From Chloroflexota bacterium (GTDB taxonomy: Bacteria; Chloroflexota; Limnocylindria; Limnocylindrales; CSP1-4), in assembly GCA_005882635.1 (NCBI GenBank), contig VBFG01000049.1, positions 1 through 55,080 of the forward strand: 55,080 nt of DNA, given 5' to 3'. The notes below the pieces were generated by a model. The model had not been told where the DNA came from, made no database searches, and saw only the letters and a program-made list of their open reading frames with translations. The stretch's first letter is position 1; each line of letters starts with the position of its first letter. Below, piece by piece: positions 53,610 through 54,758 of this stretch. A program made the translations under genes and the position numbers.

Positions 53610-54758
53610 GTGCCCGACCTCCCCCTGCTCGTCTTCGGACCGCGGTCCCTCGACTACGACTTCGGGCCGAGCCATCCCCTGACGCCACGGCGGTTCGGAC
53701 CGGGCATCGACCTGCTGCGTGCGCTGGGGGCGGAGCCGGGCCTGGCGCCGGAACCGGCGGCCGACGACGAGCTCGAGTGGTGCCACACCGCTCGCTACGT
53801 CGAGGTCGTGAAGCATTTCTCGGTAGCGGCGACGACCGCCGGCTGGCTCGACGCCGACGGTGGCATCGGCGTCGGAGGCGACAACCCGCCGTTCGCCGGG
53901 ATGCACGAGGCCGGGGCGGCGGTGGCCGGAGGGTCGATCCGGGCCGTCGAGGCGATCCTCCGCGGCGACATCGAGCACGCCCTGCACCCCGGCGGCGGGC
54001 TCCATCATGCGATGCCGTCGCGGGCGTCGGGCTTCTGCATCTACGACGATCCGGCCCTGGCGATCGCCCGGGTCCGCCGCGAGGGGCTGCGCGTCCTGTA
54101 CATCGACCTCGACGTCGAGGCGATCCACGCCGCCGACCCCGGCGTGCTGACCGTCTCGTTCCACGAGAACGGCCGCTACCTGTTCCCGGGGACCGGCTTT
54201 GCCGACGAGATCGGGGAGGGTCCGGCGGCCGGCAGCGTCGTCAACGTGCCGCTGCCGCCGGACACCGGCGACGACGCGTGGCTCGCGGCGGTGACGTCGC
54301 TGGTGCCGGAGCTGGCCGACGCGTTCGGCCCCGACCTCGTGGTCTCACAGCACGGCGCCGACAGCCACGCCTGGGACCCGCTCGCGCACCTCCGGAACAC
54401 GACGACCGCGATGGGCGCCGCCGCGCGGCTCGTCCACGACGTCGCGCATCAGCACGCAGGGGGCCGGTGGCTGGCCACCGGCGGCGGCGGGTACGACGTG
54501 TACCGGGTCGTGCCGCGGGCCTGGTCCCTCGTCTGGCTGGCGGCCGCCCACCGGGATGTGCCGGCGTTGACGCCCGAGGCGTGGCGCGAGCGGTGGGCGG
54601 AAGAGGCGGCCCGCTACGGCCAGGCGCCACTGCCGCGGACCTTCGACGACCCGCCGACGCCGACGGACCCCGCGACGACGCGGTCGATCGAGCGGACGGT
54701 GGCGTCCGTTCGAGGTGCCGTGCTGCCGCTGCTCCGCGCGGCCCGGGCGCCCGGCTGA
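53610..54758 (+). CDS. AcuC / class I histone-deacetylase homologue lacking the zinc-His loop
   Basis: A 382-residue arginase-fold deacetylase homologue. It keeps HPLTPRR, the tandem His [51 protein letters not shown] (Asp ligand) and catalytic Tyr in GGGGYDVYR. The loop that should read [10 protein letters not shown] instead runs IDLDV directly into [15 protein letters not shown], as if six residues (18 bp) including the zinc-binding His were removed cleanly after D168-V169. It may be inactive, have altered metal binding, or reflect a sequence error. Intact relatives deacetylate acetyl-lysine or acetylpolyamines. GTG 53610 is preferred over GTG 53601. Confidence 0.85.
   Translation: [382 protein letters not shown]

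Follow-up and report, generated by a model that had tools for sequence, protein, structure and literature searches.

Bacterial deacetylases of the AcuC/HDAC family hold zinc with two Asp residues and one His residue, e.g. Asp181, His183 and Asp269 in KpHdaH, and a His of the double-His motif (KpHdaH His143 and His144) acts as base/acid, each dyad His having an Asp or Asn/Gln as its partner (Asp179 and Asn186 in KpHdaH), as described in the accessible part of PMC11532494. In Geobacillus AcuC the ligands are D170, H172 and D259, with Y303, H133 and H134 also named in the accessible part of PMC13039410. Cluster 3 bacterial enzymes carry an Asn in place of the zinc His (PMC11532494, accessible part), which implies that some variation at this position occurs in nature.

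Here we describe a gene of this type whose sequence lacks the loop that carries the zinc-ligand His. It lies in the window, i.e. the whole stretch of 55,080 nucleotides that was analysed (G000:C206:1-55080), which belongs to the genome of a soil-type bacterium (3.2 Mb, 222 contigs, 93% complete). In a Pfam profile search the protein matches PF00850 (Hist_deacetyl) at 1e-65 over profile positions 1-296 of 298, an NCBIfam search of the same protein returned 0 families, and its best PDB sequence match is 1c3r (9.9e-39). Orthologues in genomes of the same family are 54-82% identical, the upper value being reached by the protein of a genome of the same genus, G002 (G002:C138, L003), where sequence upstream, at a tatA-like stretch, matches too; the named record matching this locus is the metagenome-assembled genome Chloroflexi bacterium MGR_bin130 (L041, JACCVQ010000261.1). 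Most of the named relatives found by protein match are metagenome genomes of Chloroflexota, among them one with the label Candidatus Limnocylindrales, and more distant actinobacterial relatives also occur among the matches. The label AcuC is given by similarity of type, and membership in cluster 2c is putative. In the alignment the G002 orthologue begins opposite a second GTG, at 53610, which may be the true start. The features of the gene are collected in Table 1.

Table 1. Features of the deacetylase gene and of the end of the window (positions in the window).
Feature	Positions	Strand	Basis
AcuC/class I HDAC-type deacetylase gene, 385 aa	53601..54758	+	Pfam Hist_deacetyl; orthologues; G002 alignment
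H135-H136, catalytic His dyad, intact	54003..54008	+	alignment; role from PMC11532494, PMC13039410 (accessible parts)
D169-L170-D171, charge-relay Asp and first zinc Asp, intact	54105..54113	+	alignment; roles from PMC11532494 (accessible part)
Deletion junction, D171-V172 then E173; 18 bp (HHGDGV/HHGDGT in relatives) gone	54111..54119	+	alignments
E173, at the sequence position of the lost zinc-ligand His	54117..54119	+	alignment
D254, second zinc Asp, intact	54360..54362	+	alignment, PDB match
Y298, transition-state Tyr, intact	54492..54494	+	alignment
Tail of the window, 322 bp	54759..55080	.	no match in any fetched relative

Compared with the G002 orthologue, in which the loop is present and all named catalytic residues are complete, the window has exactly 18 bases fewer, in frame, and both flanks of the junction align cleanly with no other gap nearby. 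The sequence at 54105-54119 reads GAC CTC GAC GTC GAG, and because the lost bases have GTC on either side, the cut may be placed between 54113 and 54114 or, equally, between 54116 and 54117. The first-pass annotation of this DNA had described an AcuC/HDAC homologue with a clean six-residue loss of the zinc-His loop and had placed the loss of 18 bp between 54116 and 54117. Alignment with relatives bears out this description, the coordinate being one of the two equivalent placements.

The remaining active site is preserved. H135 and H136 are invariant in 40/40 aligned sequences, as is the zinc Asp pair formed by D171 and D254, and Y298 is likewise invariant in the alignment, confirming the earlier remark that the His dyad, the later Asp ligand and the Tyr are kept. 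The zinc-ligand His of the DxDxHHGDG motif, however, is missing from the window and present in all 39 other sequences. The same deletion removes the D of HHGD, the acidic/amide partner of the second dyad His, a role that is mapped by position from KpHdaH Asp179/Asn186 (PMC11532494, accessible part).

The short loop is private to this genome. Alignment with close relatives, which had been proposed as a check, shows HHGDGV or HHGDGT at the site in 29/29 orthologues of related genomes (L003-L031); in the wider alignment HHGDG follows D-x-D-x in 39/39 other sequences, and the loop is intact at 24/24 loci of named genomes, several of these loci being the same contigs as in the set of 29. Among 30 sequences compared, only the window has an internal gap in otherwise invariant columns (6 columns), the two gaps of L028 lying at its cut C-terminal end. 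Of 126 genomes of the order, 72 contain the intact loop as defined by a sequence pattern, and G000 is not one of these. A pattern for the short loop, which captures exactly this deletion length and misses deletions of other lengths, matched only the window (G000:C206:54105-54151), both among 177 genomes of the class and among 400 genomes sampled from the phylum, two samples that overlap. Since the exact short form occurs in the window genome only, a short-loop deacetylase family can be ruled out (0/176 other genomes of the class, 0/399 other sampled genomes of the phylum); relatives with the same short loop, named beforehand as the finding that would speak against the initial description, were searched for and none appeared in either sample. 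Moreover, the exact junction sequence had 0 matches in viral contigs. At the level of titles and abstract openings, the literature on bacterial deacetylase pseudoenzymes contained no such case, and searches on zinc-binding residues together with catalytic inactivity, on AcuC together with zinc and on the residue numbering of HDAC8 returned no paper.

The gene is otherwise intact and constrained. With changes polarised against eight outgroups, the window lineage has 19 nonsynonymous and 54 synonymous changes vs 29 and 51 in the G002 sister (Fisher p = 0.22), and the pairwise values between the two are dN 0.13 and dS 0.69. Outside the gap, the window differs at just 1 column that is invariant in 29/29 others. 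An old pseudogene under relaxed selection is thus not what these counts indicate, with the power of one gene and one sister being limited. Because the rest of the gene shows no decay, the loss is either very recent or an artefact.

Structure prediction points to a local effect. AlphaFold2, run with 40 sequences, gave the window protein a mean pLDDT of 90.3 and a pTM of 0.92; for the G002 protein, which served as control, the values were 91.5 and 0.93. Helix 172-177 of the G002 model, which follows soon after the Asp-ligand strand, has no counterpart in the window model, the order of structural elements being otherwise much alike. Confidence in block 171-180 of the window model is 79, and the other four window models reach 85.0-86.6 vs 90.4-91.5 for the control. 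The window model matches HDAC8 and HDLP with a TM of about 0.8, so that, as far as models tell, the protein may have retained its fold and lost its metal site. Such models tend to keep the family fold whatever the change.

As the deletion is private and removes essential residues from a gene that is undecayed elsewhere, recent inactivation fits best, and we put the probability of a recent, private, inactivating in-frame 18-bp deletion in an ordinary AcuC-family gene at roughly two in three. A normal AcuC-family zinc deacetylase gene would have suffered a single in-frame loss of 18 bp, very recently and in one lineage, and the product would be full length otherwise and probably folded. The zinc-ligand His, the acidic support of the second catalytic His and the short helix after them would have been lost together, zinc binding would be poor or nil, and the deacetylase is predicted to be inactive. 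The first-pass annotation had left the choice between a recently inactivated enzyme, one with a changed metal site and an assembly slip between short repeats. Recent inactivation is the best-fitting of these, and the idea of a metal site changed throughout a family is unsupported because no relative shares the short loop. As to the repeats, the GTC at the junction is real, being repeated at 18-bp spacing over 3 bp in G002 (0-6 bp in other relatives), but the gene contains 343 in-frame 3-bp repeat pairs at 3-60 bp spacing. As such repeats are very common in the gene, this microhomology is weak evidence for slippage and falls short of proof; a slippage origin of the 18-bp loss is possible.

Whether living cells carry the deletion, as we infer, has to be weighed against the possibility that it is absent from the dominant genome and reflects a fault of assembly, sequencing or amplification, or a path from a minority strain near the contig end. 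We regard this origin as unlikely but as a serious rival, because only 964 bp separate the junction from the window's end and the final 322 bp match none of the fetched relatives; the window's end is probably also the contig end, and assemblies are least reliable at contig ends. The short form is, furthermore, private to one genome fragmented into 222 contigs, the undamaged state of the rest of the gene suits an artefact equally well, and at 43082-43108 the same contig has another in-frame loss when compared with G002, which could reflect a deletion-prone genome or a faulty sequence. What speaks for a real deletion is that the cut is exact, in frame and embedded in clean flanking sequence, and that a false 18-bp junction with a 3-bp repeat would need junction-spanning reads in a short-read assembly, an argument taken from the behaviour of assemblers that would weaken if G000 was assembled by another method.

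Two further explanations accept the deletion and let the product keep a function. The protein might have been retained as a non-catalytic partner that binds without deacetylating. The model, which keeps the fold with a TM of about 0.8 to HDAC8 and HDLP, is compatible with this, and an inactive pseudo-deacetylase domain is known in human HDAC10 (PMC11532494, accessible part), but the short form is found in no second genome of the class and phylum samples and thus gives no evidence of selection after the loss, making such a role improbable. Alternatively, the metal site might have been rebuilt, with Glu173 standing in for the lost His in a three-carboxylate site that maybe takes another metal and retains some activity. 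Glu173 is located two residues past D171, just as the lost His was, and the cluster 3 enzymes with their Asn in place of the zinc His (PMC11532494, accessible part) illustrate that exchanges occur at this position. Yet the deletion also takes away the residue supporting the second dyad His, the window model is without the helix and the form is seen in no relative, so that we rate a rebuilt site as very improbable and a metal role of E173 as speculation. Taken together, a Glu metal site rebuilt in one step in a functional protein, or a newborn pseudo-deacetylase kept for binding, would be an improbable outcome, and the recent, private inactivation of an ordinary deacetylase gene remains our preferred reading.

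The surroundings of the gene also differ from G002. A segment of ~8.4 kb (44621-53012) is absent between the flanking genes in G002 (L032, 15685 to 15799). Its frames encode a response regulator, a sensor kinase, an aquaporin/GlpF-like protein, a DhaK-like protein, DAK2 (DhaL) and a PtsI-like PEP-utilising enzyme; four of these names (regulator, kinase, aquaporin and DhaK) were assigned by eye. Judged by its frames, the segment is a glycerol/dihydroxyacetone cassette that was either gained in the window genome or lost in G002. Further upstream, at 40933-44043, a DUF255/thioredoxin-like protein and a NUDIX + metallo-beta-lactamase protein, which are two separate frames in G002, share one open frame of 1037 aa. 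At the junction (43082-43108) ~26 bp in the window face ~165 bp in G002, and a stop and a start are removed in frame; either two genes have fused here or the contig carries a second deletion, one whose origin is doubtful. A DUF3052 gene at 53171-53590 (-), with a profile match of 8e-07, adjoins acuC. It is missing at the same place in G002 (L032 15964), whereas L033, L037 and L038 contain sequence that matches it.

Within G000, the Pfam Hist_deacetyl profile finds two genes, that of the window and one on contig C49, and a motif search for a second intact HHGDG copy elsewhere in the genome found none. The C49 gene (L002 640-2253, G000:C49) has an intact DVDYHHGNGT, and there is no stop inside its domain match, i.e. 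the reported stops lie outside the deacetylase gene. As this gene is intact, the deacetylase-fold capacity of G000 is not wholly lost. SIR2 gave 0 matches in G000 (control positive in 10/14 genomes), an absence that is not proof because the genome is only 93% complete.

If the deletion is real, the window holds a clean loss-of-function allele of AcuC that arose naturally. As the genome has one intact second deacetylase-fold gene and no detected sirtuin, the cost of AcuC loss in this group would then become a question that can be asked. A new enzyme class is not opened by the short-loop gene. If it is an artefact, the case is a caution against inferring the loss of an active site from a single fragmented genome.

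Among the described systems, the AcuC proteins of Bacillus subtilis and Geobacillus, class I-type enzymes of cluster 2c (PMC11532494, accessible part), have the deacetylase domain, the HH dyad, both zinc Asp residues and the Tyr in common with the window protein. Geobacillus AcuC, however, has the zinc ligand H172 (PMC13039410, accessible part), whereas the window protein is without the HHGDGV-type segment. HDLP from Aquifex aeolicus (1c3r, 1c3p) is like the window protein in sequence and fold, and its His-containing loop faces the window's gap. Human HDAC8, the other fold match to the window model, carries the His-containing loop, too. The pseudo-deacetylase domain of human HDAC10 is an inactive deacetylase fold (PMC11532494, accessible part), but it is an established eukaryotic domain, whereas the window presents a single private deletion.
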